Source: Paracidobacterium acidisoli (GTDB taxonomy: Bacteria; Acidobacteriota; Terriglobia; Terriglobales; Acidobacteriaceae). Taken from it: a stretch of 64,000 nt of DNA. The DNA lies in NCBI RefSeq assembly GCF_003428625.2, contig NZ_QVQT02000007.1:124001-188000 (forward strand). The letters run 5' to 3'. This document shows, piece after piece, positions 38,807 through 60,958 of this stretch. Below the pieces are notes generated by a model. It saw only the letters and a program-made list of their open reading frames with translations, was not told the DNA's origin and ran no database searches. Positions within the stretch are counted from its first letter, which is position 1, and every line of letters starts with the position of its first letter. A program made the translations under genes and the position numbers.

Positions 38807-41800
38807 CTAATAGATGAGCTTGAGAGCAAATTCGAAGATGCGTGGATCGAGCGCGCTTGTCACCGTGCCAAAGGTTGCCGAGCCGTATCCCGTCGTAACA
38901 GCGCTGAAGTTGGGATGGTTGAACAGATTAAATGCTTCGCCGCGGAACTGCACCGCAAGGCGCTCATAAAGCGGGAAGTTTTTGTACAGCGATGTGTTCA
39001 CGCCGACCTGGTGCGGTCCGCGAATGATTCCGTTTGCCGCATCGCCGAAGAATCCCGGAGCCGGCGCTGCAAACGAATCCGTGGAGAACCACTCCGTCAG
39101 CTTTCCGACATGCTGGTATGGCGCAACCTGATTGGGACGCGTCGCCAGTCCGGCCGTCGACGTGGAGAGTGTGGGAGACAGAGCGAATCCACTCTGGAAC
39201 AGAGCCAGCCCCGCGAAGCTCCAGTCTGCGAGAGCGTAGCGCTTGAGCAGATTGTGCGAAGTATGCGCGTAAGGAATGTTGTAGACCCACGATCCCGAAA
39301 GATCATGCGTAAAGTCATAGTCGGGCGGCCCATATTCTGAGTGGAAGTTGCGCGGATTCTGCACCGATCCGCCGATCGAGCTGCCTGCGCCATTGGTATG
39401 GCCGCCTACAGTCGCCAGCGCCTTCTCATAGGTGTAGGCCGCGTTGACCTGCAGATTCTGCGATCGGTGTACAAGTCCCATCTGCAGCGCGTTGTAGTTC
39501 GACACGCCTTCGTCGTAGATGTTGTTGATATTCGCGAAGCCCGAATACGGACGGGTATAGTTCGCAGAGACCGCGCCTGAGTTAATGCAGGGATCGAAGT
39601 TATATTCGGCCGACGTACCGTTCGTCGGGCACGAAGCAAGGGTGGGAGCCGCTACAGGCAGAGGGAAGTTCAGGTTTCCGCCGGTCTGCAGCTCGAGGTG
39701 ACGGCCTACGCTGCCGGCGTATGTGACCTGCAGAACCGTAGCATGCGTGAGCTGCTGTTCCAGCGTAAGGCTGTATGACTGAATCTGCGAAGGCCGGAAG
39801 CTCGAAGGAATGATCGACAGAGTCGGCGCGGAGAGCGCGGCAGCCGAGCCCGCCGTGGGATTGGTGATCGTGCTGTTGATCAGGTTCGCCGTGTGATTGA
39901 ACGGCGGGTTCTGACCGAACGATGTGTAGATATTTTCCAGCGGGAGACGCGTATAGCCAATACCGTATCCGCCGCGGATCGAGGTGCTGCCGTTGCCGAA
40001 TACATCGTAGGCGAAGCCGACGCGAGGTCCCAAGAGATCTTTCTTTGGAATGAAGAATCCCGAAGGCACGCCGTTCTGCCCGGCAAAGATGATTCCGTTG
40101 AGCGTATTGGCTGTGCTGCCGGAGCTCGTGACCGGCTGACCCTGCGCATTGGTCGCCAGTGTTCCGTTCAGATTGATGACCGGAGCCTGCGCTGTTTCAA
40201 ACTGAGCCGGGTTAAAGCTGCTCACCTGGTCTCCACTCGCCGTATCGCTTGAGAAGTACACCCAGCGCAGTCCGAGGTTCACCGTCAGCCGCGGCGAAGT
40301 CTTCCATGTGTCCTCGACGTAGGCTTCTCCCTGCCGATAGTGGAAGGCGCCGCTCCGCTCCGTGCTGTCCTGAGAGTACGTCGCATCAAGCCCGAGAAGA
40401 TAATCGGCCGCCGGATCGCCTGTATGCGTGCCCGTGAAGGTGAACTGGCCCTCGGGCCGGGTAAACACGTTCTGCCGTTTGATGCCGAACATGTAGACGC
40501 CGCCCGCTTCGAGAACATGACTGCCCCTCACCCAGCTCACATCGTCGGAGACAATGCCTTCACCGTCAGAGGCGTGAATCGGAATGTTCCACAGTCCGAC
40601 CGACGTATAGCCCTTGCTGATCGAAATCGTCGGAATGCGGTTGTACATATCCGCTCCCGGATACGCCTGGTTGATCACCGCGCCCGATGGCAGGCTTCCG
40701 CTCGATGCGGAGTATTTGGGACGATCTTCCGTCTCGGCAATGCCAAACGTGTTGATGAGATTCGGCGTCAGCGTGGAGCTGAGCCGCGCCATCATATTGA
40801 GTGCCGGAGTCGTAATCGTCTCCGTAATGTTGCTTCCCACATAGCCCTGCTGCGGAACATCGGGATAGTTGACTGTCGTCGGCGACGACATGTACCGCAC
40901 CACAAGAAGCTCGTTCGGATTGAAGTAATGATCCACGCGATACTGGCTGTCGAACTCGCTGGTCACCTGGCTTCCCTGGTTCAGATAGTTCAGGAAGCTG
41001 GTTCCCACAATGTGGTTGGGAAGCGGCATGTAGGAGTTCATGATGGCGACCGCCGTTGGGTCGAAGCACGCGGTATTCAGTGTCTTCTGACCGAGAACGC
41101 AGTTCGTCTTCCCTTCGGAAGCCAGCAATGCCGTGCTGCCTGGATCAAGTTTGAAGGCGCCGCCGGTAAGTGTCTGGCTCTGACTGAAGTCGCCGTTCCG
41201 GAAGGCCTGAGAAAAGAACGTTCCCTGGTTTACCTGACCGGCGCGGATGCTGAACCACTGGTTCGACGCGAAGAAGAAGGTCTTCTTTCGATCCGCGTTG
41301 TATACATGCGGAATCACTACCGGACCGCCGAATGTATAGCCGTAGATGTTCTGGCGCAGCGGAGTCTTGATCGTCGAAAAGTAGTTATCCGCGTCGATTG
41401 CGTCGTTGCGAAGATACTCCCACGCCGATCCATGGAAGGCGTCCGTTCCGCTTTTCGTTTCAATCACCACCTGGCCGGAGCCGGCAAGCCCGTACTTCGC
41501 GCTGTAGTTATCCTTCAGCACGCGGAACTCGTTGATGCCGTCCACAATGGGCGTCACGTTCACACCCTGCAGGCTTCCCGAGTTCATGTCGTAGATACCG
41601 TCGATGGTGTACGTCGTGTACTCGACCGAGCTGCCGTTGACGATAAGATCGCTGTTGCTGCCAAGCGTCTGGTTTGCGCCCGTCGTGCTCGCTACACCAG
41701 GAATCGTCGTAGCCAGCGTCTGGAAGTTGCGCCCGTTCAGCATCAGGTTATCGACCTGCTTGCTTGAGATCGTGCCGGCATTCTCTGACGTTTCCGTATT

Positions 41801-42199
41801 CACCTGCACCGCATCGGCGCTGACCAGCACCTGCGAGCTGACCTCTCCCACCGGAAGAGTGACGTTCACGGCGCGCCGCTGGCCGGGATCGATCTGGATG
41901 CCCTTTGTCCTGCTCTGCTGAAAGCCGCTTTTTGTCACCGTTACGGCATACGAGCCCGTTCCCAGGCCCTCCTGCGAGTAGAACCCCGCAGAGTCGGTCG
42001 TCACCGTTGTGGCAACGCCGGTCGCCTCGTTGGTGATCAACACCGTGGCTGCCGGAATCACTGCTCCTGCCGTGTCGGCCACTGTGCCCGAGATCGCGCC
42101 GTTGCTGGTCTGGGCCAGGACCGGAAGAGCCATGCATAACGCCAGTACAGCGATCGAAAAAGTCGCGATCAGGCGTCCTGGATAAGTGCGGATTTTCAC
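38807..42199 (-). CDS. TonB-dependent receptor 3, Oar-type
   Basis: A 1130-residue outer-membrane protein. The GTG at 42199 is preferred because a strong GGGAGG lies six bases upstream and the signal peptide (IATFSIAVLALCMALPVLAQ) follows at about residues 10-30. CarboxypepD_reg-like domain to about 115 (GAISGTVADTAGAVIPAATV), plug with NLMLNGRNFQTLATTIPGV and IETKSGTDAFHGSAWEYLRN, barrel ending in Leu-Ile-Tyr. No enzyme gene follows it before its terminator; the nearest upstream gene in the same direction is the GH106-type enzyme. Substrate is therefore the least certain of the receptors here. Confidence 0.92.
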   Translation of the reverse strand: MKIRTYPGRLIATFSIAVLALCMALPVLAQTSNGAISGTVADTAGAVIPAATVLITNEATGVATTVTTDSAGFYSQEGLGTGSYAVTVTKSGFQQSRTKGIQIDPGQRRAVNVTLPVGEVSSQVLVSADAVQVNTETSENAGTISSKQVDNLMLNGRNFQTLATTIPGVASTTGANQTLGSNSDLIVNGSSVEYTTYTIDGIYDMNSGSLQGVNVTPIVDGINEFRVLKDNYSAKYGLAGSGQVVIETKSGTDAFHGSAWEYLRNDAIDADNYFSTIKTPLRQNIYGYTFGGPVVIPHVYNADRKKTFFFASNQWFSIRAGQVNQGTFFSQAFRNGDFSQSQTLTGGAFKLDPGSTALLASEGKTNCVLGQKTLNTACFDPTAVAIMNSYMPLPNHIVGTSFLNYLNQGSQVTSEFDSQYRVDHYFNPNELLVVRYMSSPTTVNYPDVPQQGYVGSNITETITTPALNMMARLSSTLTPNLINTFGIAETEDRPKYSASSGSLPSGAVINQAYPGADMYNRIPTISISKGYTSVGLWNIPIHASDGEGIVSDDVSWVRGSHVLEAGGVYMFGIKRQNVFTRPEGQFTFTGTHTGDPAADYLLGLDATYSQDSTERSGAFHYRQGEAYVEDTWKTSPRLTVNLGLRWVYFSSDTASGDQVSSFNPAQFETAQAPVINLNGTLATNAQGQPVTSSGSTANTLNGIIFAGQNGVPSGFFIPKKDLLGPRVGFAYDVFGNGSTSIRGGYGIGYTRLPLENIYTSFGQNPPFNHTANLINSTITNPTAGSAAALSAPTLSIIPSSFRPSQIQSYSLTLEQQLTHATVLQVTYAGSVGRHLELQTGGNLNFPLPVAAPTLASCPTNGTSAEYNFDPCINSGAVSANYTRPYSGFANINNIYDEGVSNYNALQMGLVHRSQNLQVNAAYTYEKALATVGGHTNGAGSSIGGSVQNPRNFHSEYGPPDYDFTHDLSGSWVYNIPYAHTSHNLLKRYALADWSFAGLALFQSGFALSPTLSTSTAGLATRPNQVAPYQHVGKLTEWFSTDSFAAPAPGFFGDAANGIIRGPHQVGVNTSLYKNFPLYERLAVQFRGEAFNLFNHPNFSAVTTGYGSATFGTVTSALDPRIFEFALKLIY

Positions 42200-42252
42200 G
42201 TACAACCTCCCATAAATCCATGTTTCAAAAAGGAAACTTTTCCCGAAGCGGA

Positions 42253-42282
42253 ACAATACCGACTCCACTGAAAAAGTGTCAA
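42253..42282 (-). promoter_or_regulatory. Promoter for TonB receptor 3
   Basis: Minus-strand TTGACA (42282-42277), 18-base spacer, then TATTGT (42258-42253). The leader to the GTG is about 45-50 nt. Confidence 0.55.
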
Positions 42283-48305: not shown

Positions 48306-48340
48306 AAAGCCGCGACCCTTATAAGGCGCGGCTTTCTTTT
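48306..48340 (+). terminator. Intrinsic terminator between esterase and GH31
   Basis: Stem AAAGCCGCG/CGCGGCTTT with inner ACCCTTATAAGG, followed by CTTTTT. It serves the plus-strand esterase; the A-rich 5' arm makes some activity for the convergent GH31 transcript possible. Confidence 0.75.
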
Positions 48341-50619
48341 TAGTTCCAGGCGATGGTCGTGTGATCCTTATGCCTGAACTCGACATACGGGCCATCTGCG
48401 CCGTTCTGTACCGTAATCTCCGATCCGTTGACCGAGACCGAATGCACCTTCCCGAAGCGCCAGCGTACTGTCACATCGGCAGGCTTACCCTGAATGGTGA
48501 GGGAGTGCGCGCTGCGCGTAAGATTGCGGCCCTCGAAGTCCGTGATGCCGACTGATCCGGAGTCAGCAGCCTCGGGCAGCAGCTCATAGACACGGCGATC
48601 GTCGAGCGATTTGATCGACGTGTTGCCGCTCTGATCGCCGGGAACCAGCGTCATCACATCTTCCGGAATCTTCGGAATGATCGCAGATGCCCGCGCATAC
48701 AGAGGCAGCGTCTCCAGCGGCGCATCGGCAATGACGATCTTTCCACCCTGCAGCGCTTCACCGGTCCAGTAATTGACCCACTCTCCAGGCGGCAGATACA
48801 CCACGCGCGACGTGTTTTCGTCGATGACCGGAGCCACAAGGAAGTCGGGGCCGAAGAGATATTCGTCTTTCGCCTCCCGCGCGCGCTGATCATTCTGATA
48901 TTCGAGCACGAGAGCGCGCATAATCGGCATGCCCGTGCGGGATGCCTCCTGCGTGGCGGCATAGAGATACGGAAAGAGGCTCATATGCAGCACCGCATAT
49001 TTGCGGTAGTTCCCCAGCGCCTCCGCGCCGTAATCCCAGGGATCGAGGTTAGCCGTGCTGATCGTCTCCATCACCGGCGAGAATGCGCTGTATTCGGTCC
49101 AGCGCATGAACAACCGCGGATCAGGCGTGGAAGCGGTCTTCAGATAACCACCGAGATCGGCGAGCCAGAGCGGCATGCCGCTGAGCCCTGCGCCAAGTCC
49201 GGCCGTAACCACAGTGGGAAGTCCATTCTCAGTGGAGAAGCTGGCTTCGTTGTCTCCACCCCACAGAAATGCCAGGTTGTGATCTCCCACAGTAGCTGAG
49301 CGGATCAGCAGAATGCCGTTGCCGTGAAGTTTCTTTTGAAGCACTTCTTCCACGGCATTGTTGTACAGCACGGTGTACTTATTCCGCATAAGCCGCGGAT
49401 CGGTGCCATCTGCAAATCTCGCGCTGCCCTGAAAGTTTCCTTCCGCGTCGTCGTCCTTGAACCCATCCGCACCCTGTGCAACGACGTTCTCCAGCTGTGC
49501 CTGCCACCACGCTTTGGCTTCAGGGTTGGTGAAATCGATCATCGATCCCTGGCCCTTCCACCATGTAGCGGCATAAGGCTTTCCCGAAGCGTCCTTAACA
49601 AAATAGCCTTTGGCAGCGGCCTCTTTATAATTCGACGACTCCACGTCGATCTTGTCCGCGAACCCCACTTCACCCGGAGTTTTGGTCCTGTTGTTGATCC
49701 ATGAGGTGTGCCACAGGACCAGCTTGTAGCCCTTCTCATGAATATTCCGGATCATCTCAGGAACATCGCTGAATTGCTTTGGGTTAAAGATATAGCTGTT
49801 GTAGCCGGTCGCCCACGGAGAATCGATAAGCACCACGCTGGCAGGCAGGCCAAGATCGCGCGTCTTCTGAATATCTTTTTCTACTTCTGCGTCACTGGGA
49901 TAGTAATCGCGGCTTACCCAGGGAGCGAAGCTCCAGTAAGGAGGAAGAATCGATCGTCCGGCAAGCGCGGTAAATCGATCGAGTATCTTCGGAAATGCAG
50001 GACCGGCGATGAAAACGATGCGAAGCTTCTTCCCCGGAACCGAAACCCACACATCCTCCCGCGAAGTTACATTCAGGTCGAAGGTCGCTTCTGCCGTGGT
50101 ATCGAGCCAGAGACCATATCCGGTAGTGCTCATATAAAACGGAATCGGCTTATATGTATCAGTACCCTTCGCAGCAGGATTGTCCTGCGAGCTGTTCACC
50201 AGAATCTGATGGGCATGATTGAGCGAATTGAACCGTTCACCTAATGCGTAATACCCATCCGCCGCATCATTGACCGCGAACTTCCAGACACCCACCTTCG
50301 GGGCCTCTCCGGTGATCTCCTGCACGCCATCACTCAGCTCGCGTACATGAAGGCTGCCCGTTGAAACCGCCGCACCGTCGAAGGACACATCTTGCAGCAA
50401 CAATTTTGCATCGCCGTCACTGTTCCTTCCCGGTTTAAAGCCAGGCACCGTGAAGGCCAGTGCGTCTGTCTCTCGCTGCACCTGCGCAGCGATGGGTTGC
50501 CCATTCGCTTCTCTTCCACCGTTGTCAGCCGATACATGTGATGCGAGCGCCGGCAGCGCAAGGCTGCACACAAGGATGCCGAGCGGCATCCACTTACTGG
50601 TCCGAATCAATATATTCAT
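48340..50619 (-). CDS. GH31 family glycoside hydrolase (alpha-xylosidase/alpha-glucosidase-like)
   Basis: A 759-residue exported protein, signal peptide about residues 8-27. The N-terminal beta-sandwich (about 35-215) leads to the barrel, with nucleophile Asp390 in GADGFKDDDAEGN and probable acid/base Asp456 in FLWGGDNEAS; the C-terminal beta domains hold PPGEWVNYWTGEALQGG. The GFKxDxxE form of the nucleophile motif is closer to alpha-xylosidases (YicI-like) than to GFWxDMNE alpha-glucosidases, which suits xyloglucan oligosaccharides. No good ribosome binding site precedes the ATG; a second Met at 50589 is possible. It is the last gene of the LacI-linked operon, 30 bases after the unknown gene. 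Confidence 0.9.
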   Translation of the reverse strand: MNILIRTSKWMPLGILVCSLALPALASHVSADNGGREANGQPIAAQVQRETDALAFTVPGFKPGRNSDGDAKLLLQDVSFDGAAVSTGSLHVRELSDGVQEITGEAPKVGVWKFAVNDAADGYYALGERFNSLNHAHQILVNSSQDNPAAKGTDTYKPIPFYMSTTGYGLWLDTTAEATFDLNVTSREDVWVSVPGKKLRIVFIAGPAFPKILDRFTALAGRSILPPYWSFAPWVSRDYYPSDAEVEKDIQKTRDLGLPASVVLIDSPWATGYNSYIFNPKQFSDVPEMIRNIHEKGYKLVLWHTSWINNRTKTPGEVGFADKIDVESSNYKEAAAKGYFVKDASGKPYAATWWKGQGSMIDFTNPEAKAWWQAQLENVVAQGADGFKDDDAEGNFQGSARFADGTDPRLMRNKYTVLYNNAVEEVLQKKLHGNGILLIRSATVGDHNLAFLWGGDNEASFSTENGLPTVVTAGLGAGLSGMPLWLADLGGYLKTASTPDPRLFMRWTEYSAFSPVMETISTANLDPWDYGAEALGNYRKYAVLHMSLFPYLYAATQEASRTGMPIMRALVLEYQNDQRAREAKDEYLFGPDFLVAPVIDENTSRVVYLPPGEWVNYWTGEALQGGKIVIADAPLETLPLYARASAIIPKIPEDVMTLVPGDQSGNTSIKSLDDRRVYELLPEAADSGSVGITDFEGRNLTRSAHSLTIQGKPADVTVRWRFGKVHSVSVNGSEITVQNGADGPYVEFRHKDHTTIAWN

Positions 50620-50649: not shown

Positions 50650-51882
50650 TTAGTCCATCCATTGCAAAACCTGCTGCATAGTAACCGCCGACGCCGATAC
50701 TGTTCCACGCGGCAGAGAAGGAGAGATTGCCAGTGCCAGCTCGTGCTCTTCAAACCATACGAGGAATCGCGCCTGGTCGGCCCCTGCCAGACGCGCCTGG
50801 TTGATCCAGGTATACCAGGCTCCCATATCCGCGTCGATCAGCGAGCCCTGCGGGTCCATCGCCTGGGTAAAAGGGTTTCGTTTGAGCAGAACACTCATCG
50901 GCGCCATCATTTGTCTTGGACAGAACCTGGCAAGCAGCGTCACAGGCTGCGCCCGCCGCAGAGCTTCGCGCGCACTCCATTGAACAAATGTTGTGCTGAA
51001 GACCTGCGTGCCGGCTCCCTCTGTAAATATGCTGGTCTCAAATTCATGGAGAACGGGATCACCCTGCCTTTCCGAAAAGCCAAGGTCGGCCGGCCCGAGA
51101 GAGGCCATATACGACGTCACCTCTTCCGGTCCTGCCGGCGTCTGCATCTGCGGATTCCCAGCGAAACGGTTCATGAGATTCAGCTCTTTGAACGCAAAAG
51201 CGGCCAGCTCTCTGTACGACATGACCGTGATCCCCTGGGCTTCGCCGCAGTCAGAGCGCGGGGTTCCTCCGTCGATATACCAGTGGGCATAGCGTTCGGG
51301 ATGAGTCTGTGCCCGTTTGTTGACGCAGGCAACGAGCGCGTCGAATGTTCCGGCCGGTTGCACTGCGGTGAACAGAGCGCCATGAGGACGCAGATCGCGA
51401 AAGAGCGTACGGCTTGTCTGCGAAGCGCCGTTTCCAACGATGACAATCGCCAACCGTGGAATGGCCGGAGCCTCGCCATTCAATGCATCCGCAAGGCGCT
51501 CCTCATATTTATGCCCCGCCTCGCGATAGGCATCGATCTGATGCGTGGACCAAAGTGAAGCGCTGAGGCGCTCGTTGAACCGGCGCGGGTTCTGCACCCA
51601 GTCCATCCGGGCCAGATCATCCGGAAGCTCCAGAGCAGCAAACGGAGCCATCAGCGCTGCGAACTCTGCCGCCAGCATCTCTTTCAGAGAATGAAGCTGA
51701 CGGGCAAGCGTCTGCTGCTCGGCGGGAAAGCGCGAGTCATAGTGAATGATCTGAGCGAGCAGGATGGAAAGCAGCGGAACCGGAATCTGCTGCAGCACCG
51801 CCAGATGATCGGCGATGAAAGCCTGCGCCTGCGGGGGATAGTGCGCAAAGCTCTTCACCGTGAGTGTCTGCGGCCGAATCAC
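50650..51882 (-). CDS. Protein of unknown family, coupled to an AlkP-superfamily-like gene
   Basis: A 410-residue protein I do not recognise. It has no signal peptide or membrane helix and looks cytoplasmic and mixed alpha/beta. Visible blocks are IPRLAIVIVGNGASQTSRTL, a nucleotide-binding-like stretch without a true P-loop, HWYIDGGTPRSDCGEAQGIT, and a C-terminal FLVWFEEHELALAISPSLP. Its GTG start overlaps the stop of the upstream gene by four bases (GTGA), so the two products are made together and may interact. The Tat signal on the partner and the lack of one here put them in different compartments unless the partner is folded or loaded by this protein before export; that is speculation. 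Confidence 0.65.
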   Translation of the reverse strand: MIRPQTLTVKSFAHYPPQAQAFIADHLAVLQQIPVPLLSILLAQIIHYDSRFPAEQQTLARQLHSLKEMLAAEFAALMAPFAALELPDDLARMDWVQNPRRFNERLSASLWSTHQIDAYREAGHKYEERLADALNGEAPAIPRLAIVIVGNGASQTSRTLFRDLRPHGALFTAVQPAGTFDALVACVNKRAQTHPERYAHWYIDGGTPRSDCGEAQGITVMSYRELAAFAFKELNLMNRFAGNPQMQTPAGPEEVTSYMASLGPADLGFSERQGDPVLHEFETSIFTEGAGTQVFSTTFVQWSAREALRRAQPVTLLARFCPRQMMAPMSVLLKRNPFTQAMDPQGSLIDADMGAWYTWINQARLAGADQARFLVWFEEHELALAISPSLPRGTVSASAVTMQQVLQWMD

Positions 51883-53033
51883 AAAATCTCCGTGACAGGC
51901 CGGCCTTTAGCGTAAGGTGTTTCAAATCCCATCCAGGAGCCGATCGTCGGAACCAGATCGACGGATTCCACCGGCCTGTCAACCGTGAAGTTCTCACGAA
52001 TGCCGGGGCCAAGCGCCATGATCCACGTCGTGCGCGACAAGGCGTCACCGGTGCGATGATGCTGAAATCCATTGCCTGCTCCGTCAAAATCGGAGTCACG
52101 GCCGAAATCCGGAAGAATCACAAGTGTGGTGCGGCCTTTGTATTCAGGATGCGATTCGATCTTCTGCCATATCTCCGCGCATAGCCGATCCGTGCGCTGG
52201 ATGGCATCTATATATAAGGAGTAGGCGCCGGAGTGCGCGACATCCATGTCATGCAGCGTGATCCAGAGCAGGCTCGGTGAAAACTGACGCATCACCTGCT
52301 CCATCACGAAGACCGACAACTCATCCGCGCTGGATAACGTACCGGCATGCGCAATGATCTCCTTAACGGAGATGCGGAGAATCTGCTGGAGACGATCGAG
52401 TTGCGTGTCGGCATGCAGTGACGGTGACACCAGAAATGGATTCTCATAGTTATCCTGCAGAAGAAAATCCAGACTCTCCGGGTGCATATCTTCCCGCTGC
52501 GCGGCAGACGCAAGCAGCTCTTTCGGAAGCACCACTTCAGCGCCATAACCGCCGGGAAAGAGCGCTCCACTGCTCTGACCAATCCGATTAAAGCCATTGC
52601 TGGGTGCAATCACCCATGCGTCCTGTGCCGGACGCCGAAGACCTTTGCGGAAGTATTCGAATACTGTCGGATTCTCCGGCGCAACGTGCGCAAAATTATC
52701 GAAGCGCTCGTAAACACCGGTCGCGATGCTGGCGTTGGCCACATAATGGCCGAGAATTCCGCGATTCACCACCTGAGTAAAGAAGGTAGCCTGAGGAATC
52801 AGCTCGCGGATCAGATGCGGAATATTCTCCTGGCCTTCCGCGGCAAACGTCTCCTTGTCGCGGGCTCCTCCTCCGAAGGTAACGACCACTACCTTGCGGT
52901 CGCGCTGAGGCTGAAGAGCAAGTGCAGGCGCAAAACTGAATAGCTGCGAGCCCGCGCCGGCAATGGCTACAGACCGCAGGAAGTCGCGCCGGGTAATAGC
53001 CCGCTCATGTGCAACCCTGCTGATCGCATCCAT
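51879..53033 (-). CDS. Alkaline-phosphatase/sulfatase-superfamily-like protein with Tat signal
   Basis: A 384-residue protein with a Tat signal (TRRDFLRSVAIAGAGSQLF, residues 14-32). Its C-terminal half has AlkP-superfamily-like metal sites: LHDMDVAH (Asp264, His267), ILPDFGRDSDFDGAGNGFQH (Asp309, His325), and a final PVESVDLVPTIGSWMG as in sulfatases and DUF1501 proteins. The N-terminal strand VVVVTFGGGARDKETF lacks the usual metal-binding Asp directly after the strand, and no sulfatase CxPxR motif is present, so it is not a formylglycine sulfatase. It sits between receptor 4 and an unknown gene. A phosphodiesterase-like role on sugars is possible but unproven. Confidence 0.72.
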   Translation of the reverse strand: MDAISRVAHERAITRRDFLRSVAIAGAGSQLFSFAPALALQPQRDRKVVVVTFGGGARDKETFAAEGQENIPHLIRELIPQATFFTQVVNRGILGHYVANASIATGVYERFDNFAHVAPENPTVFEYFRKGLRRPAQDAWVIAPSNGFNRIGQSSGALFPGGYGAEVVLPKELLASAAQREDMHPESLDFLLQDNYENPFLVSPSLHADTQLDRLQQILRISVKEIIAHAGTLSSADELSVFVMEQVMRQFSPSLLWITLHDMDVAHSGAYSLYIDAIQRTDRLCAEIWQKIESHPEYKGRTTLVILPDFGRDSDFDGAGNGFQHHRTGDALSRTTWIMALGPGIRENFTVDRPVESVDLVPTIGSWMGFETPYAKGRPVTEIL

Positions 53034-53123: not shown

Positions 53124-56100
53124 TTAGAAAATATACTTCGCAGATATCTGGATGAACCGGGCGTCTGGTGTGTTGGACTGAAATACTTTTGCCGCGGTGA
53201 TGGCTCCTCCATTCGAGGCATCCGTAACGACGCTTGGATTGCCCCAGGATGGGTGGTTGAAGATGTTGAAGACATCACCGCGCAGCTCGAGATACTGCTC
53301 CCGCCACGTGGTGAAATTTTTGAACAGAGACATATTGATCCTCTCGTATCCGGGACCGTACACCTGATAGGCCCGGCCGCCGAGAAAGGCATAGGCATCG
53401 GCCAGTCCTGTGGTGTACTTCGGATACGAATACCCCGCCTGAGGAGTGAACGGTGACCCATCAGGACCGGGCTTGAGGCTGATCAGCGTGCCGGGTAATG
53501 GATTCGCCATCGCGCATGGGTTATACCAGTTTGTTTTGGTACGGGTATGCGCTGCGCAGTTGACCCCTGGGTTCGAGGGATCAGGTGAGCCTCCAGGTTT
53601 GAAGGGATCGCGCACCACAAACGTCCGTGCCTGCCCGCGAGGTCCGGCCGGAGCGGTGGTGATGTCGGGTGTCACGCTGAATGGATTGCCCGTCTGCGCC
53701 GTGAATGTCAGGCTGGTGGACCAGCCTCCTGCAAACGCATCGATCAGCCTGTTGGTGATGGGGTGCGCGCGGCCTGCTCCGTAAGGGATCTCGTAATATC
53801 CATTAAAGGTGAAGCGGTGCCGCACATCCCACAGCGAGTTTGTATATTCATCGGACAGAGGAATCAGGTTGGAGTTGCGGGGAGTACCGGCTCCGCTGGT
53901 AAGCGGACTGAAGCTGTTATCCAGGCCGTGCGAATACGTGTAAGTAGTCAGAAAGGAAAGCCCGGATGCGTAACGCTTCTCGAGCTTTGTCTGCAGGCCG
54001 TTGTAGTTGCTCACGCCGGCAAACAGGTTCTGGTTGCTCTGCCCGAAGTCGGGGAAAGGCAGCGCCTGAAGATACGAGTTTGCAGGATTGACCAGCGCAT
54101 TCGGACCGTTGGGGTTATCGACGGTTTCAAGATGCCGGGACACATTTCCCACGTAAGCGATAGTCGCCGAGAGATTGCCCGACACTGCCCTCTCAACAGA
54201 CAGGTTGTAGTTCATGGTGTAAGCGGTCTGCGAATGAGGGTCCATGCTCTGCATCTGAGGCGAAGACACGGAGTTTCTTAAACCGCTGCTGACCAGGCTG
54301 GTAAAGCCGGTAGCCAGATAATAACCGGCAGAAGGGCAGCCCCCGGATGCGGTGCAGCTGGGTGCCGTGATTGTGCTGCTGAAGGAGAACGGAAAGCTGG
54401 AGCCGAGATTGTTGCCGCCGAAGCTCTCCAGACCTCCATAGAAGATGCCGTATCCCGCGCGGACCACGGTCTTGTTGTCCACCGAATACGCAACTCCGAA
54501 GCGGGGCGCAAAGTTCCCCTTCTGCGCATTCAGCAGATATTGATTGCCAATATACTGTATGGCTACGTTGTCCTTTTGGGCCAGGGCAAGGAAGGTAGGC
54601 GAAAGCGGAACACTACTTGCTTTCGTCGGAATCTGATAGACCGCTGTCCCTGTTCCGATCTGATGGAAATTTTCAGGGACGAAGTTCGCCTGGTATCCGG
54701 CGTTCTCCTTATACGGCTGATAGTAGTCATACCGCAGACCCAGGTTCAGGGTCAGCTTCTTGGTCGCCTTCCAGTCGTCCTGGACATATGCGGAGCGATA
54801 CCACCGCGCATCGTTCGTGGTTGCCTCGTTGGATATCTGACCGCTGTACATCTGATCCGCCAGGAAATCCGCGGCGGCATATCCCGTATAACTCGCGCCC
54901 AGATTGCTGGTATACAGTCCGGTGTAGTTATAGTTTCCTCGGGAGTTAGGCGGCTGCAGAAACGCCATGCGAATGCTCTGGAAGATAAAGCCGGCCTTGA
55001 TCGAGTGATTGCCGACAATTTTGGTCACGTTGTCGAGAATCTGATACGTATTCTGGTGTTCGACCGACGGTGTATATCCAAAGCTTCCAAAGTACGTCAG
55101 GCCGGTCATCGTAACGTAAGGAAGACCGCCGTTGTCCGGGAAGTCGGCTCCCGATGGAACCCCTCCCAGCCCAAGCGACCCTGCAATGTTGGGGTTGTTG
55201 TAGTTCAGCTGAAGGTTGAAGAATGCACCGTAGTCGTATCCAAAGCGCACCTCGTTAATAAAGGTGGGCGTAAAGATATGCGTCTCGCTGCCAGTCACGT
55301 TTTCAGATAATGCCGATGTCTGCGCCGAGCTGTTTCCCAGAATATTTCCGAGCGCCTCAGGGTTAGTCGCCTGCACGTGAGAATAGCTGAGCCGGACGAA
55401 GGCCTGATCCTTGCTCGTGGGGTTCCAGTCCAGCCGCTGATCCCACTGGAACGTGTTATTGCGGTCGTTTTCCGTGGCGGTAAAGTTGTTGATGATCTTT
55501 CCGCCATTCGTATTCGGCATCGGATACAGGCTCAGAAGATGCTGCGCGGTGGCATTGATCTGGTTCGTGCAGAACACGTTGTTCTGGCCGCTGCACTGCA
55601 GCATCGCTGACCCGCCGGAGTTCGGCTCATAGAGCTGAATCGGACTGGCCTGACCTGTCAGGCCAGTGTTGAGCAGCTCTGAGAAGTTCCCCTGGCGCAT
55701 CAGCGCCGTGGGCACTGACAGAGTCGATGTCGCTCCAAAGGTGATCCGGTTCGCTTCGAAATCGCCGAAGTAAAACATCTTGTTTTTAAGAATGGGAAGA
55801 CCGAGCGTAGCTCCGAACTGATTCTCGTGGTACGCGGGGATACTCAGCGCAGTCCAGTCTCTGGCATCAAGAATGGTGTTGCGCACATACTCCCATGCGC
55901 TTCCGTGAATATGATTCGTTCCCGACTTGATGCTGGCGTTCAGCACTGCGCCGGCCGAGTGGCCAAACTCCGCGCTGAAGTTCGATGTCTCCAGCTTGAA
56001 CTCGGCAAGCGCGTCCGGGGGAGGGCGAATGCTGTAGCTGGTGCCGTTCATAAAGTCGATGACATTGATGTTGTTATCGACGCCATCAAGAATAAAGTCG

Positions 56101-56675
56101 TTCTGTGTCGCTCTCTGCCCGTTGGCAAAGAAGTCTCCCGAGCCGCCGCCTCTGCTTTGGCTGCTGACGGATGGAGCCACACCGGCCGTCAGATGAGCGA
56201 TGTACACCCAGTTGCGTCCGTTGAGCGGCGTGTTGTTGATCGCCTGCGTGCTGATCACCTGATCGACAGAGCCCTGCTCCGACTGAATCAGTGGAGGCGC
56301 CGTGTTGACCACAACCTGCGTCGTGGCGACACCGGGTTTAAGGCTGATCACAATGTTCAGCCGGGCCTGCACGTCCAGCTGCAGATTCTCCTGCGTCGTC
56401 GTGGAAAAGCCAGGCGCTGAAGCGCTGACCTTATAGCGTCCCACCTTCAAAGGTGAGAACACATACACGCCGCTGCCGTCGGTCGTGCCCTGCAGCACGA
56501 GGTTGGTATCGATATTGGTCAGGGTAACGGCCGCATTTGGAATCACGGCTCCGCTCGTATCCTGAACAACACCAGTGATGGTGCCCTGGTCTACCTGGGC
56601 GCCGGAGAAATGCCACGCAAACAGGAGCAGGAACGCACTTAAGAGTACTAATGATTTTGTTATCCGGTATTTCAT
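53124..56675 (-). CDS. TonB-dependent receptor 4, Oar-type
   Basis: An 1183-residue outer-membrane protein. Signal peptide about residues 5-27 (VLLSAFLLLFAWHFSGAQ), CarboxypepD_reg-like domain to about 115 (GTITGVVQDTSGAVIPNAAV), plug with NNTPLNGRNWVYIAHLTAGV and NASIKSGTNHIHGSAWEYVR, barrel ending in Tyr-Ile-Phe. ATG 56675 is chosen because the signal peptide starts there; GGAGG lies 12 bases upstream. It begins 44 bases after the CE15-like esterase gene on the same strand, so both belong to the LacI-linked operon, and it probably imports the esterase and GH31 products or their precursors. Confidence 0.92.
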   Translation of the reverse strand: MKYRITKSLVLLSAFLLLFAWHFSGAQVDQGTITGVVQDTSGAVIPNAAVTLTNIDTNLVLQGTTDGSGVYVFSPLKVGRYKVSASAPGFSTTTQENLQLDVQARLNIVISLKPGVATTQVVVNTAPPLIQSEQGSVDQVISTQAINNTPLNGRNWVYIAHLTAGVAPSVSSQSRGGGSGDFFANGQRATQNDFILDGVDNNINVIDFMNGTSYSIRPPPDALAEFKLETSNFSAEFGHSAGAVLNASIKSGTNHIHGSAWEYVRNTILDARDWTALSIPAYHENQFGATLGLPILKNKMFYFGDFEANRITFGATSTLSVPTALMRQGNFSELLNTGLTGQASPIQLYEPNSGGSAMLQCSGQNNVFCTNQINATAQHLLSLYPMPNTNGGKIINNFTATENDRNNTFQWDQRLDWNPTSKDQAFVRLSYSHVQATNPEALGNILGNSSAQTSALSENVTGSETHIFTPTFINEVRFGYDYGAFFNLQLNYNNPNIAGSLGLGGVPSGADFPDNGGLPYVTMTGLTYFGSFGYTPSVEHQNTYQILDNVTKIVGNHSIKAGFIFQSIRMAFLQPPNSRGNYNYTGLYTSNLGASYTGYAAADFLADQMYSGQISNEATTNDARWYRSAYVQDDWKATKKLTLNLGLRYDYYQPYKENAGYQANFVPENFHQIGTGTAVYQIPTKASSVPLSPTFLALAQKDNVAIQYIGNQYLLNAQKGNFAPRFGVAYSVDNKTVVRAGYGIFYGGLESFGGNNLGSSFPFSFSSTITAPSCTASGGCPSAGYYLATGFTSLVSSGLRNSVSSPQMQSMDPHSQTAYTMNYNLSVERAVSGNLSATIAYVGNVSRHLETVDNPNGPNALVNPANSYLQALPFPDFGQSNQNLFAGVSNYNGLQTKLEKRYASGLSFLTTYTYSHGLDNSFSPLTSGAGTPRNSNLIPLSDEYTNSLWDVRHRFTFNGYYEIPYGAGRAHPITNRLIDAFAGGWSTSLTFTAQTGNPFSVTPDITTAPAGPRGQARTFVVRDPFKPGGSPDPSNPGVNCAAHTRTKTNWYNPCAMANPLPGTLISLKPGPDGSPFTPQAGYSYPKYTTGLADAYAFLGGRAYQVYGPGYERINMSLFKNFTTWREQYLELRGDVFNIFNHPSWGNPSVVTDASNGGAITAAKVFQSNTPDARFIQISAKYIF

Positions 56676-56719
56676 TACTGCGGTGACCTCCAAAATGGGG
56701 ATTGCATCGAAATGCTTCG

Positions 56720-59062
56720 CTATTTTTCGTTCAGAGACATCCACTGCACGGTTTCATTGAGTGTGTTATTGGGGAGCCGATTGATATCCCATGGTTCGCG
56801 AAGCGCCAGCTTTGCGCCTGCGTCATACAGCGAGTAGATCTTTCCCGCCTGCTCGACTGCGGTCTTCACATCAGCGGGAGTTGCATCGCGGTCCAGAAGA
56901 GGCTGCACAATCAGTGCGGGCCGCGGCGCAATCATCGCCAGCAGATCGTTGAAGTCGTATGGAATCTGTGACTCATGCCCATCAAAAAATCCGAGCCTGG
57001 GAATGAAGTCGCGTATCTTGCTGTAGCGGGCCACGCCTCCTGTGCCGGTGGCAGCGGTGTCTGTTCGCATTGGAGTAAATCCAGCGACGGAGACAATGCC
57101 TTTGACGCGTGAGTCCAGCGCGGCCGTATAAACGGCCACCGTGCCGCCAAGGGAGTAACCGTAGAGATAGACCCTTTGCGGATCGATCATGCTGTCTTTC
57201 TGAAGCATGTCGATCGCCGACTGCGCGTCCTCTACAAGCCGGCCCATGTGCGACCACTGCGGATAGCGGCCGTAGAAGGGACCGGTTTCGCCGAGCCTGC
57301 TTCCAAATCCGCTCTGGTCATAGGCGAAGACCGCGTATCCGGCCTGCACCAGCGCGAGGATCGGGTGCGTATCCTCGTGATAGCCCCACATATATCCGAG
57401 CGGATAGCTGTAGCCGTGCAGCCATATCACCACCGGCAGTTTTGTTCCATCCGGCGTGCCGGCGGGATAGTAGAGATCGCCCCGCAGATTGTCGGAGAAG
57501 GTCAGCCTGCGCGAAACGGTTTTGCTTCTTTGCGGCTCAGTCCATCCATATTCGTTATCGCCGCGAGCCTGCATCGAGATCGCCCACGCCGGAAGATCGG
57601 GTGTCACCTGCCCAGGGTTCGCAGCTCCTGGCGGCATCGGGCGAAAGTGGAAGCGTCCTGCGTTGATCTCCTCTTCGGTCATCTTCGGCGGCTCGGTTCC
57701 GAGCATCCACTCAACCGACTTATGCAGCTCGGCTGACTTTGCTTCCCACTCCGCAGAAGTATGCACCGACGCCAGATCGTCGCCATTGTGCTTTGGAAAC
57801 GAGCTCAGACTGACCGACTGATTCGTATCGCTGCGCCACTGGTCCCAGTTCCAGCGGAAGATCAGATTGTTCGTCCAGGTGGCCTTCGAGCGCCCGAACT
57901 GAATGTCGAGCCAGTCAAGGCAGGCCTCCTCATCATTCGCGCCGTGAAAACCAGGAACGCGCATGGTACTGATCCGGTCGGGAACCCCGAGAAGCTGATA
58001 CACCTTCAGCGCGGAGTAGTATGTCTGCTCGTTGCCCCAGGTGTTGGAGACCTGATCGTTGTTGCCCCATTCCATCAGCAGCGAGCGCGGCGCGATCATC
58101 GCCGCGACCAGGTTGCCATCAACAGGCAGCCGGTCCTCGCGTCCGGTAAAGAATCGCAGCTGCGGCGCAAACCATGTGGGAAAGCGGCGGGTCGTGGCCT
58201 CAATTCCCTCGCCGATGCCAACTTCTCCCGACGCGCGCCACGGCAGCACGCCGCCAACGCCAGTGCTGCCTGCAATCACAGCGGCAAAGCGCGTATCGAG
58301 CGCCGCCGCGATGGTCGCCATCTTGCCGTTGCGCGAATAGCCGAAGATGGCTATATGCTTCGCATCGACCTGCGGCAGTGTTTCCAGATAATCCAGAACA
58401 AGACTGGCGGCCCAGGCACGGCGTGGCAGCAGCGCAAAATCGTAATCGGGATACAGCTTGTCGAGCGCGGCGGCATCGTCCATCATGTCGTTGCCCGCAT
58501 ATCCCGCCGAGATATAGCCTCTGCGAATCAGCTCCGGAGCCCATCCCAGCAGATCGCAGTTCAGCAGCACCGGCATCGGCTCTTTGCCATCCGGAATGAC
58601 AACGCGCGCCCGCATGCTTCCCTTGTCTTCGGGACCAAAGACGAGGCGCACATTGCGCACCAGATAGCCGTTCTCATGCTTCTCATCGAGAACGACCACG
58701 TGATCGAGCTTGGGCTTCGGCGGAATCGTGCCCCACACGTACTTCTGCGAGAGCTGGTCGATCTCATTTCTGCGCGCGGCCCATCCGCCGGCCGTTGTTA
58801 CCCTGCGGCCGTCCAGAAAGGTGAGCGGATCGGGAAGCTGATTCTGTTTGGGTAAAGCCTCAAAGTCAGGAGGAAGCGCATTCGTCTTCTGCAGCCAGGT
58901 GTTGAAGTAGGGATCGGGCGGCAGGATCTGCTGCAGCTTTTCGAGATATTCCTTACGCCCCTGTTCCGTCGAGGTGTTCTGTGCCGACGCACAGACGCTC
59001 GCCACAAGCAGCACTCCCGGTAAAATTCTGCGAAACCACAAACTGCCCTCAAAACGAATCAT
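56720..59062 (-). CDS. Double esterase: CE15-like glucuronoyl esterase domain fused to a second alpha/beta-hydrolase
   Basis: A 780-residue exported protein, signal peptide about residues 12-28. The first domain (about 60-400) resembles CE15 glucuronoyl esterases: HIAIFGYSRNGKMATIAAAL holds Ser243 in GYSRNGK, close to the CE15 motif GCSRxGK but with Tyr for Cys, and PGFHGANDEEACLDWLD holds the likely His373. The second domain (about 505-780) is a dienelactone-hydrolase/peptidase-S9-like unit with LPVVIWLHGYSYPLG and YLYGYSLGGTVAVYTAALDS (Ser637). CE15 enzymes cut ester links between lignin and glucuronoxylan. The Cys-to-Tyr change removes the disulfide seen in fungal enzymes. It leads the operon downstream of the LacI gene. 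Confidence 0.82.
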   Translation of the reverse strand: MIRFEGSLWFRRILPGVLLVASVCASAQNTSTEQGRKEYLEKLQQILPPDPYFNTWLQKTNALPPDFEALPKQNQLPDPLTFLDGRRVTTAGGWAARRNEIDQLSQKYVWGTIPPKPKLDHVVVLDEKHENGYLVRNVRLVFGPEDKGSMRARVVIPDGKEPMPVLLNCDLLGWAPELIRRGYISAGYAGNDMMDDAAALDKLYPDYDFALLPRRAWAASLVLDYLETLPQVDAKHIAIFGYSRNGKMATIAAALDTRFAAVIAGSTGVGGVLPWRASGEVGIGEGIEATTRRFPTWFAPQLRFFTGREDRLPVDGNLVAAMIAPRSLLMEWGNNDQVSNTWGNEQTYYSALKVYQLLGVPDRISTMRVPGFHGANDEEACLDWLDIQFGRSKATWTNNLIFRWNWDQWRSDTNQSVSLSSFPKHNGDDLASVHTSAEWEAKSAELHKSVEWMLGTEPPKMTEEEINAGRFHFRPMPPGAANPGQVTPDLPAWAISMQARGDNEYGWTEPQRSKTVSRRLTFSDNLRGDLYYPAGTPDGTKLPVVIWLHGYSYPLGYMWGYHEDTHPILALVQAGYAVFAYDQSGFGSRLGETGPFYGRYPQWSHMGRLVEDAQSAIDMLQKDSMIDPQRVYLYGYSLGGTVAVYTAALDSRVKGIVSVAGFTPMRTDTAATGTGGVARYSKIRDFIPRLGFFDGHESQIPYDFNDLLAMIAPRPALIVQPLLDRDATPADVKTAVEQAGKIYSLYDAGAKLALREPWDINRLPNNTLNETVQWMSLNEK

Positions 59063-59249
59063 GCTTCTCCCATCAGGTGGTCAATACGCATCCGAGACAC
59101 GGAGAGCGCTTCTCGGCCGACACCTCATCGGCCAGAAAAAGCGCAGGCAGGGATACAGCCGGACGGCCTGCAAACCGTCGTTCACTGTGACTGGATATCG
59201 AAGTAATTTTTGATTTCGGAAAAACGATTTTCCAAAATCACGAGGCTTA

Positions 59250-59278
59250 CTTAAACACTGTGAAATTTGCACTGTCAA
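59250..59278 (-). promoter_or_regulatory. Promoter of the CE15-receptor 4 operon with operator-like spacer
   Basis: Minus-strand TTGACA (59278-59273), a 17-base spacer, then TTTAAG (59255-59250). The spacer contains TGTGAAATTTGCA (plus strand 59259-59271), nearly the same as the LacI-type operator candidate in the regulator's own promoter spacer. Confidence 0.5.
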
Positions 59279-59309
59279 GAAATATTTCAAAATAATTATG
59301 AAATATTTC
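59279..59309. promoter_or_regulatory. Two GAAATATTTC palindromes spaced 21 bp
   Basis: Identical perfect 10-bp palindromes lie at 59279-59288 and 59300-59309, a centre distance of 21 bases (two helical turns). They sit immediately upstream of the -35 box of the CE15 operon, as expected for cooperative binding of a dimeric regulator. Confidence 0.5.
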
Positions 59310-59378
59310 TTTTTCAGGCATAGATGGGCGCACGGGCATGCGCTCCGGGTTTAGCCCTGGGGGATTGCGAGGGGCGGA

Positions 59379-60416
59379 TTAAACCTTTTCCGGGGAGATC
59401 AGTGCGGCGCAGGACTCCCTGCGGACCAGCTGCGTGGGAAGGATGAGCGAGCGCGGAGGCTGATCGGGCTCGGCGATCGTTTTGAGCATGGATTCGGCCA
59501 GCTGTCTTCCCAGCTCATCGGCAAATACCCTCACCGAAGTCAAAGGCGGATGCAGGAAAGACGCCTCCAGCGTGTCGTTGAAGCCCGCCACGCTTACGTC
59601 ATCGGGAATCGTCATCCCGCTGTCGCGAATCGCCTTGTAGACTCCGCCGGCAAGGGCATCGTCTCCCGCAAAAATCGCGGTGAGCGTGGGAGTTTCCTGC
59701 AGCATCAGCTTCGTGGCCAGATAGCCCATCTCCTCGCCTTCGCGGGTATTCAGCTCGCTTGAGCGAGCCGCCAGGCCGGCCTCCAGCATGGCGCGCTGGT
59801 ACGCCTGGTGGCGGCGCGCAAACCAGGGCAGTCTGCGGTCGCCGATAAAACCGATATGCCTGTGGCCGAGCGACTGCAGATAGCGGGTAAGGTCGTAGGC
59901 GCCCGCCATGTCGTCGAAGTAAACCAGCCCCGGCTGCTTCTGCTGCATCTCTCCCACGATGTTGTTTCCAAGAGCGACCCACGGCATGCGGCGTTGTGTG
60001 AGCAGGCTGGTCAGGCTCTTCGAATTGGTGCCGGCCATGATGACGCCCGCCACAATCTGCCGGTTCAGCAGGATCTCCGGCAGCTCCAGCTCATCCGGCG
60101 CAGTGCTCATGGAATACTTCAAAGAAAGAAACAGCAGCCCGTAATCATTCTCCGCGCAGTAAGTCTCCGCCCCGGTGAGCACCGACGAATGGAAGGGGTG
60201 CAGAACGCCGCGATTGCTCAGCAAAAAGGCGATAATGCGCGACTTCTTTCCCGTCTCCAGACTGAATCCAAGACGCTTCGCAGCGTCAGTGATCCGCTCG
60301 CGGGTCCGGGGATTCACCTCGGCACTGCCGGCAATAAGACGGGATACGGTGGCCGCGCTGACATTCGCCTCACGCGCCACATCGACAAGCCTGATCTTTT
60401 TCGATTTATCGTTCAT
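59379..60416 (-). CDS. LacI/GalR family transcriptional regulator
   Basis: A 345-residue regulator. The N-terminal helix-turn-helix reads IRLVDVAREANVSAATVSRL, followed by the hinge helix region RITDAAKRLGFS. Residues about 60-335 form the periplasmic-binding-protein-like ligand domain with HRHIGFIGDRRLPWFARRHQ, LTAIFAGDDALAGGVYKAIR and VSVAGFNDTLEASFLHPPLT. The ligand is probably a sugar or sugar acid released from the polysaccharide its target operon attacks. The gene lies directly upstream of the CE15 operon on the same strand, with operator-like sites in both promoters, suggesting control of itself and of that operon. Confidence 0.93.
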   Translation of the reverse strand: MNDKSKKIRLVDVAREANVSAATVSRLIAGSAEVNPRTRERITDAAKRLGFSLETGKKSRIIAFLLSNRGVLHPFHSSVLTGAETYCAENDYGLLFLSLKYSMSTAPDELELPEILLNRQIVAGVIMAGTNSKSLTSLLTQRRMPWVALGNNIVGEMQQKQPGLVYFDDMAGAYDLTRYLQSLGHRHIGFIGDRRLPWFARRHQAYQRAMLEAGLAARSSELNTREGEEMGYLATKLMLQETPTLTAIFAGDDALAGGVYKAIRDSGMTIPDDVSVAGFNDTLEASFLHPPLTSVRVFADELGRQLAESMLKTIAEPDQPPRSLILPTQLVRRESCAALISPEKV

Positions 60417-60487
60417 TTACTGACTTCTGCTCTCACCTGGCACAATCACAACCGGATACCTGCCGCAATTTATGCGCAGAGAGAAAT

Positions 60488-60516
60488 CCTATATCTGCAA
60501 ACATTCACATATTCAA
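60488..60516 (-). promoter_or_regulatory. Promoter of the LacI-type gene with operator in its spacer
   Basis: Minus-strand TTGAAT (60516-60511), 17-base spacer, TATAGG (60493-60488). The plus-strand sequence TGCAAACATTCACA at 60496-60509 falls wholly in the spacer and matches the second candidate operator at 11 of 14 positions. Confidence 0.5.
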
Positions 60517-60572
60517 TGGAAATTTTCAATAAGCCTTTGCCGATCCGTAAAAAGCAGGCTCCATTTTTACCC

Positions 60573-60586
60573 TGCAAACGTTTTCA
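60573..60586. promoter_or_regulatory. LacI/GalR-type operator candidate TGCAAACGTTTTCA
   Basis: This 14-bp near-palindrome with a central CG fits the general LacI/GalR operator form (compare the CcpA cre site). It lies 77 bases, centre to centre, upstream of the spacer site, so a repression loop is possible. Confidence 0.5.
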
Positions 60587-60958
60587 CCACGGAACCAGCG
60601 GAATTTCAAATCGGAAACTCGCTGGAGGCTGAGGTGTTGTGCCTCTTATCTTATCTTATGAATCCAGCTTATTCACCTATAAGTATCTGAAACTGGCGGA
60701 TATACCTCGCGGTGTGCCGCAGACCGAGACAAGACAGATCCCGACAGCGGTTGTTCCGATGAGCTTTCAGAAATTTTCTGAAGGATTTTCAGGGCGTGCT
60801 ATTTCAAATCAGACATGCAGGCGCAGTCGCAGCAAATCAGTAAATCGAAAAATCATGGATGGAATAAAAGCAGGATCGCTGATTTCCGGCTTCTGCTTCA
60901 GAACAGCACAGGCATCCGCCGGCTGCGGCTCGCGCAGTGATTTTGGAGCGCCGGAAGC

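Follow-up and report, generated by a model that had tools for sequence, protein, structure and literature searches.

A hinge-deleted LacI-family regulator and its predicted paired, AT-centred operators at a CE15 esterase operon in a soil acidobacterium

LacI-family proteins are mostly repressors, and the textbook account of allostery in the lac repressor turns on how folding of the hinge helix is coupled to DNA and ligand. In the survey of Ravcheev et al. (2014, PMC4052901), a central CG was found in 1173 of 1251 even LacI operators, a majority feature that is not universal, and autoregulation was found in 72% of LacI regulators. The same study reported intersite peaks of 13, 22 and 32 bp for tandem sites, the last two being read as cooperative dimers, and obligatory double sites at 21–22 bp in the RafR and ScrR regulons; the word Acidobacteria is absent from it. 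CytR of E. coli has relaxed half-site spacing and depends on CRP (PMC3454398), and its linker is flexible and unstructured according to the title of Jorgensen 1998, as cited there. Our limited searches found no literature on a hinge-deleted LacI clade and none joining LacI-family, Acidobacteria and TonB-dependent, which is weak evidence of absence.

The locus described here lies in a window of 64 kb, the whole stretch of DNA that was analysed. Its regulator resembles the local sugar regulators of PMC4052901 in joining a LacI HTH and Peripla_BP_3 core with an even palindromic predicted operator, and in its predicted autoregulation and tandem sites spaced by about two helical turns, but differs from them in the AT centre of the operator and the deletion of the hinge helix. 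As in the RafR and ScrR regulons, the predicted operators are paired at two helical turns and are read as cooperative dimers, although the lineages, hinge and motif type are different and the pairs here are common rather than universal. For a change of linker accompanied by a change of operator, CytR is the nearest precedent: it too belongs to the LacI family, and both its interdomain linker and its operator are atypical; the clade of the window's regulator, in contrast, has a shortened linker of constant length and an operator of fixed spacing. The genes of the locus are as follows.

59379–60416, minus strand: lacI-family regulator gene (345 aa, 18-residue linker, hinge helix deleted)
56720–59062, minus strand: CE15-like glucuronoyl esterase (PF22244 and a second alpha/beta-hydrolase domain)
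53124–56744, minus strand: outer-membrane receptor (CarboxypepD_reg and OMP_b-brl_4; 40 other matches in the genome)
51879–53033, minus strand: possible AlkP/sulfatase-superfamily protein (Tat-like signal; Pfam matches weak, below cutoff)
50650–51882, minus strand: unknown-function protein of 410 aa, overlapping the AlkP-like gene by 4 bp
48340–50619, minus strand: GH31 glycosidase (closest curated model alpha-xylosidase, below that model's cutoff)

The CE15-like protein matched PF22244 with 146 bits at residues 146–359 and carries the GxSRxG nucleophile motif as GYSRNG, while the 410-aa protein had no Pfam or NCBIfam family match. Judging the substrate only from CE15, the second esterase-like domain and a GH31 enzyme near alpha-xylosidase, the five genes from CE15 to GH31 probably form a plant-polymer ester operon controlled by the regulator.

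The regulator has a LacI HTH (PF00356, 45.2 bits against a cutoff of 27, residues 10–51) and a periplasmic-binding-protein-like core (PF13377/PF00532, 127.9 and 74.7 bits; Pfam, Peripla_BP_3), and the hinge helix YxPNxxARxL that belongs between them is absent through a 6-residue deletion. Of 47 clade proteins, 46 have a linker of 18 residues, counted from the invariant A46 to residue 63, and one has 19, versus 24 in all 25 hinge-bearing relatives compared. When the regulator was aligned with CcpA and other solved structures, its gap fell in the hinge helix, and the AlphaFold model (pLDDT 92) shows coil at residues 50–60, all the way between HTH helix 3 and the first strand of the core. The hingeless clade had a branch support of 100/99 in a tree in which hinge state was assigned by linker length and by-eye reading, the tree's automatic labels being wrong for 8 rows; because this clade nests inside LacI relatives, the family descent of the regulator is not in doubt. 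Judged from its sequence, the regulator therefore belongs to the LacI family as a derived type with the hinge deleted. Its relatives (44–62% identity) occur across the class, also in named Acidobacteriota genomes, and most adjoin a gene for an outer-membrane receptor of the same family as the window's receptor, usually divergently transcribed. A CE15 gene was found beside none of the relatives at the loci examined.

De novo motif discovery in up to 350 bp upstream of 31 of these relatives, with the window left out, yielded the palindrome tGAAAATTTTCa, which has an AT centre. The 16-bp model, tttGAAAATTTTCaaa, reached a log-likelihood of 102.5, compared with 23–31 for mononucleotide-shuffled sets. 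Sites of at least 15 bits were present in 52% of the upstream regions of 27 further loci and in 4% of shuffles. These loci (24 hingeless, 2 hinge-bearing and 1 Opitutaceae) include no copies of the training regions and are mostly from the same clade, and the hinge-bearing and Opitutaceae members lower rather than raise the figure. Spacing was also constrained: of the 19 site pairs upstream of relatives, 14 lay 20–21 bp apart, whereas shuffled sets gave 0.64 pairs in all, at any distance of 10–60 bp, and none at 21. Such pairs are common, not universal, among the relatives. In this and related genomes, 22 sites have TTGAC immediately behind the 10-bp operator core (0.28 expected), and in 14 of the 22 a −10-like hexamer follows 16–18 bp further on. 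The paired or TTGAC-abutting sites of the relatives are mostly at promoters of outer-membrane receptor genes. All of this evidence is computational, the relatives are not independent samples, and the shuffle P values given below are bounded by the number of shuffles. The AT-centred palindrome, of the family GAAAWWTTTC, is the likely operator of the regulator, predicted to be even and palindromic like those of the LacI family, with AT in place of the central CG. Its matrix would be the first for the LacI group found beside outer-membrane nutrient receptors in soil Acidobacteriota.

Scanning the 64 kb with the relatives' 18-bp matrix placed predicted operators at both promoters of the locus.

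59275–59292, minus strand: predicted operator O1 of the CE15 operon (core GAAATATTTC at 59279–59288, abutting the −35 TTGACA)
59296–59313, minus strand: predicted operator O2 of the CE15 operon (core GAAATATTTC at 59300–59309, exactly 21 bp upstream of O1)
59248–59276, minus strand: predicted CE15 operon promoter (−35 TTGACA 59276–59271, 17 bp, −10 TTTAAG 59253–59248)
59211–59240, minus strand: 30-bp palindrome TGATTTTGGAAAATCGTTTTTCCGAAATCA at the predicted CE15 transcript start
60514–60531, minus strand: predicted lacI-promoter operator (core GGAAATTTTC at 60518–60527; rank 4 in the window, 14.4 bits)
60493–60510, minus strand: second predicted lacI-promoter operator (containing site 1, below; rank 6, 13.1 bits)

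O1 is the top match in the window (22.6–22.7 bits) and O2 the second best (20.3–20.4 bits), while the maximum of a shuffled 64-kb window averaged 14.6 bits, with 0.02 matches of at least 20 bits per shuffle. The operator stretch is AT-rich within a window of 60% G+C, which lifts chance scores there and was controlled by local shuffles; under these, the best single CE15 site had P = 0.0036 (dinucleotide shuffles) and the 21-bp pair P ≤ 0.0002 (5000 shuffles). The cores of the two sites lie within a palindrome, AAGAAATATTTCAAAAT-A-ATTATGAAATATTTCTT, spanning 59277–59311 in the CE15 upstream region. Genome-wide counts, made by pattern and not by matrix, located the exact tandem GAAANNTTTC-N11-GAAANNTTTC only at the CE15 promoter, and exact copies of GAAANNTTTCTTGAC only there and, on contig C12, at the locus that encodes a hingeless LacI paralogue. 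The order O2, 21 bp, O1, TTGACA, 17 bp, TTTAAG matches the layout at the relatives exactly. Assuming a start about 7 bp past the −10, the two sites would be centred near −42 and −63. At the lacI promoter, the two sites (60493–60531) are again 21 bp apart, and their significance comes from the pair alone (P ≤ 0.0002, shuffles), the best single site having P = 0.088, which is not significant.

Building on the computed motif, pairs, −35 abutment, clade and deletion, we infer binding by the regulator, cooperativity, repression and an inducer. We think it probable, with a fair degree of confidence, that the hingeless regulator binds the paired AT-centred operators and represses the CE15 operon and its own gene until induced. 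Dimers would bind the short palindrome tGAAAWWTTTCa, two of them side by side on one face of the DNA, 21 bp or two helical turns apart, with the stronger pair abutting the −35 of the CE15 operon and the weaker one in the regulator's own promoter. The apo-regulator would block RNA polymerase at both promoters, and an inducer, a sugar or uronate that the substrate yields, would bind the core domain, such that the receptor, esterases and GH31 enzyme would be made only when needed. Repression is favoured as the family default, given operators that abut the −35 and a separate pair in the lacI promoter, yet it is only likely, since operators abutting the −35 at a fixed distance would also suit activation. 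Because the same 21-bp pair and TTGAC abutment recur at relatives, comparative support now exists for the predicted autoregulation and CE15 operon control put forward in a preliminary description of this DNA, on stretches other than those it had proposed; with the operator corrected, the wiring becomes testable on exact DNA.

Activation of the CE15 operon by the same regulator through the same sites, with dimers near −42 and −63 contacting RNA polymerase and the lacI pair serving autoregulation, is a serious but less probable reading. Sites so placed are typical for class II and class I activators, the core meets TTGAC without a gap at each of 22 sites, whose partners lie 20–21 bp further upstream, and the predicted −10, TTTAAG, is weak. 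However, the −35 is a full TTGACA in most such promoters, an argument that is partly circular because TTGAC was the search criterion, and, besides the repressive habit of the family, the lacI-side operator overlaps the −35 itself in several relatives. It is also conceivable, though we consider it unlikely, that the C12 paralogue is the main protein to bind the CE15 pair, or that both regulators bind it in cross-talk. The paralogue (C12:77638–78651) has 43% identity to the window's regulator and belongs to the same clade, and its locus carries similar sites, GAAAGTTTTC, one of them followed by TTGAC; it is nevertheless the C13 gene that adjoins the CE15 operon and has the 21-bp pair in its own promoter. 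That the palindromes are mere AT-rich promoter DNA, such as a UP-element or curved A-tracts, serving no specific regulator would agree with the composition of the stretch, but shuffling the dinucleotides of the AT-rich 121 bp does not produce the pair, and both motif and 21-bp spacing turn up again near the same LacI clade elsewhere, making this the most improbable of the alternatives.

Scarcely more credible is the model of the preliminary description, in which a CG-type string, TGCAAAC..., was the operator common to three sites. The strings are present as written: TGCAAACATTCACA at 60496–60509 (site 1), TGCAAACGTTTTCA at 60573–60586 (site 2) and TGTGAAATTTGCA at 59259–59271 on the minus strand (site 3). 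Their stated placement holds relative to plausible hexamers (TTGAAT/TATAGG for lacI, TTGACA/TTTAAG for CE15), although a promoter scan returned no sigma-70 promoter above threshold in either region. A matrix built from them did better than shuffles on the upstream training sequences (z 4.6), partly overlapping the true motif, but lay only about 2 sd above shuffles in the further loci. Against a single shared operator, the clade's motif has AT rather than CG at its centre, and the relatives' matrix, which ranks site 1 6th in the 64 kb, ranks sites 2 and 3 only 117th and 136th. Site 1 survives as the weaker member of the lacI pair and fits the likely operator weakly. Site 3 is one base short and has a match count below chance, and its role as an operator was not borne out. 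When the strings were matched in the window with up to 3 mismatches, no excess over chance appeared (5, 4 and 6 matches for sites 1, 2 and 3, versus 3.8, 3.3 and 10.3 expected). That description had missed the two copies of GAAATATTTC (59279–59309), GGAAATTTTC and the 30-bp palindrome. Site 2 is of a different type:

60573–60586, no strand assigned: site 2, TGCAAACGTTTTCA, a canonical CG-centred, near-palindromic LacI-type site

Its pattern, TGNAANCGNTTNCA, is rare, occurring at 7 places in the 5-Mb genome compared with 1 for a reversed control pattern. Although this gave the earlier model some credit, site 2 is probably the site of another LacI protein, or a chance match, and perhaps another, hinge-bearing LacI acts on lacI through it. 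One further TGNAANCGNTTNCA site, at C14:100409, lies about 170 bp before a match to a receptor gene.

Homologs of the CE15 gene (40–65% identity) were tried as a source of operator conservation and set aside: at the four closest loci (L104–L107, 59–70% identity), both the motif and such a LacI neighbour are absent. As the site is missing from all close CE15 homologs, the predicted control of CE15 seems to be lineage-specific.

The closest LacI relatives of the hingeless clade form a hinge-bearing sister clade (L211–L249, L180, L182; about 33–41% identity), with a 24-residue linker that includes RPNxxAR. Like the hingeless clade, it has palindromic operators upstream of the regulator gene, and its upstream regions yielded the strong motif TGGAAcCGgTTCCA, with a CG/YR centre (C/T-G/A; CG/TA). 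The two clades differ in both traits, the sister having the longer linker and TGGAAcCGgTTCCA, and the window's clade having 18 residues and an AT centre, which suggests that the loss of the hinge is accompanied by that of the central CG. We put at even chances the conjecture that one exact six-residue deletion removed the hinge helix and that the central CG of the operator disappeared along with the helix (TGnAAnCGnTTnCA to TGnAAnnTTnCA, a shortening by two base pairs), leaving recognition and allostery to proceed without hinge folding. From the motifs alone, excision of the CG and its replacement by AT fit equally, with half-matrix correlations of 0.47 and 0.46. The GalR recognition helix, SVATVSR, reads TGTAA half-sites, and many proteins here have what we take to be the same helix; this match would favour removal of the central base pairs over their replacement. 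If the co-loss is true, the hingeless protein should prefer the 12-bp AT-centred site among TGAAAATTTTCA, TGAAACGTTTCA and TGGAACCGGTTCCA, and the clade would be a natural case of a minor-groove lever and its target step vanishing together. A hinge-deleted clade that apparently keeps a conserved, specific operator lets the roles of the hinge and the central CG be probed.

The 30-bp palindrome at the predicted CE15 transcript start, also given as TGATTTCGGAAAAACGATTTTCCAAAATCA, is an inverted repeat with 12 of 13 pairs and folds as a 13-pair RNA hairpin (z −3.4 for the 180-nt leader); its core, GGAAAANCGNTTTTCC, occurs once in the genome. It is possibly a 5'-UTR hairpin or stabiliser, or a CG-centred second operator. 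Elsewhere in the genome, on C11, a good site (20.9 bits) lies ahead of a receptor gene, and the window holds one more candidate:

42229–42246, minus strand: tentative further site (15.1–15.2 bits, rank 3 in the window)

This site lies immediately before the point where a second receptor gene (ORF 38807–42268), which adjoins a GH106 rhamnosidase gene, probably begins. The fifth-best match, TTTCAGAAATTTTCTGAA (60765–60782, 14.2 bits), is a near-perfect palindrome about 350 bp upstream of lacI, near the end of a histidine kinase gene. The C12 sites (L122 15560–15800, G000:C12) lie in a divergent region between two gene groups, with an amidohydrolase/Gfo-Idh/LacI/receptor cluster on one side and a glucosamine-6-phosphate-isomerase-like and MFS pair on the other.
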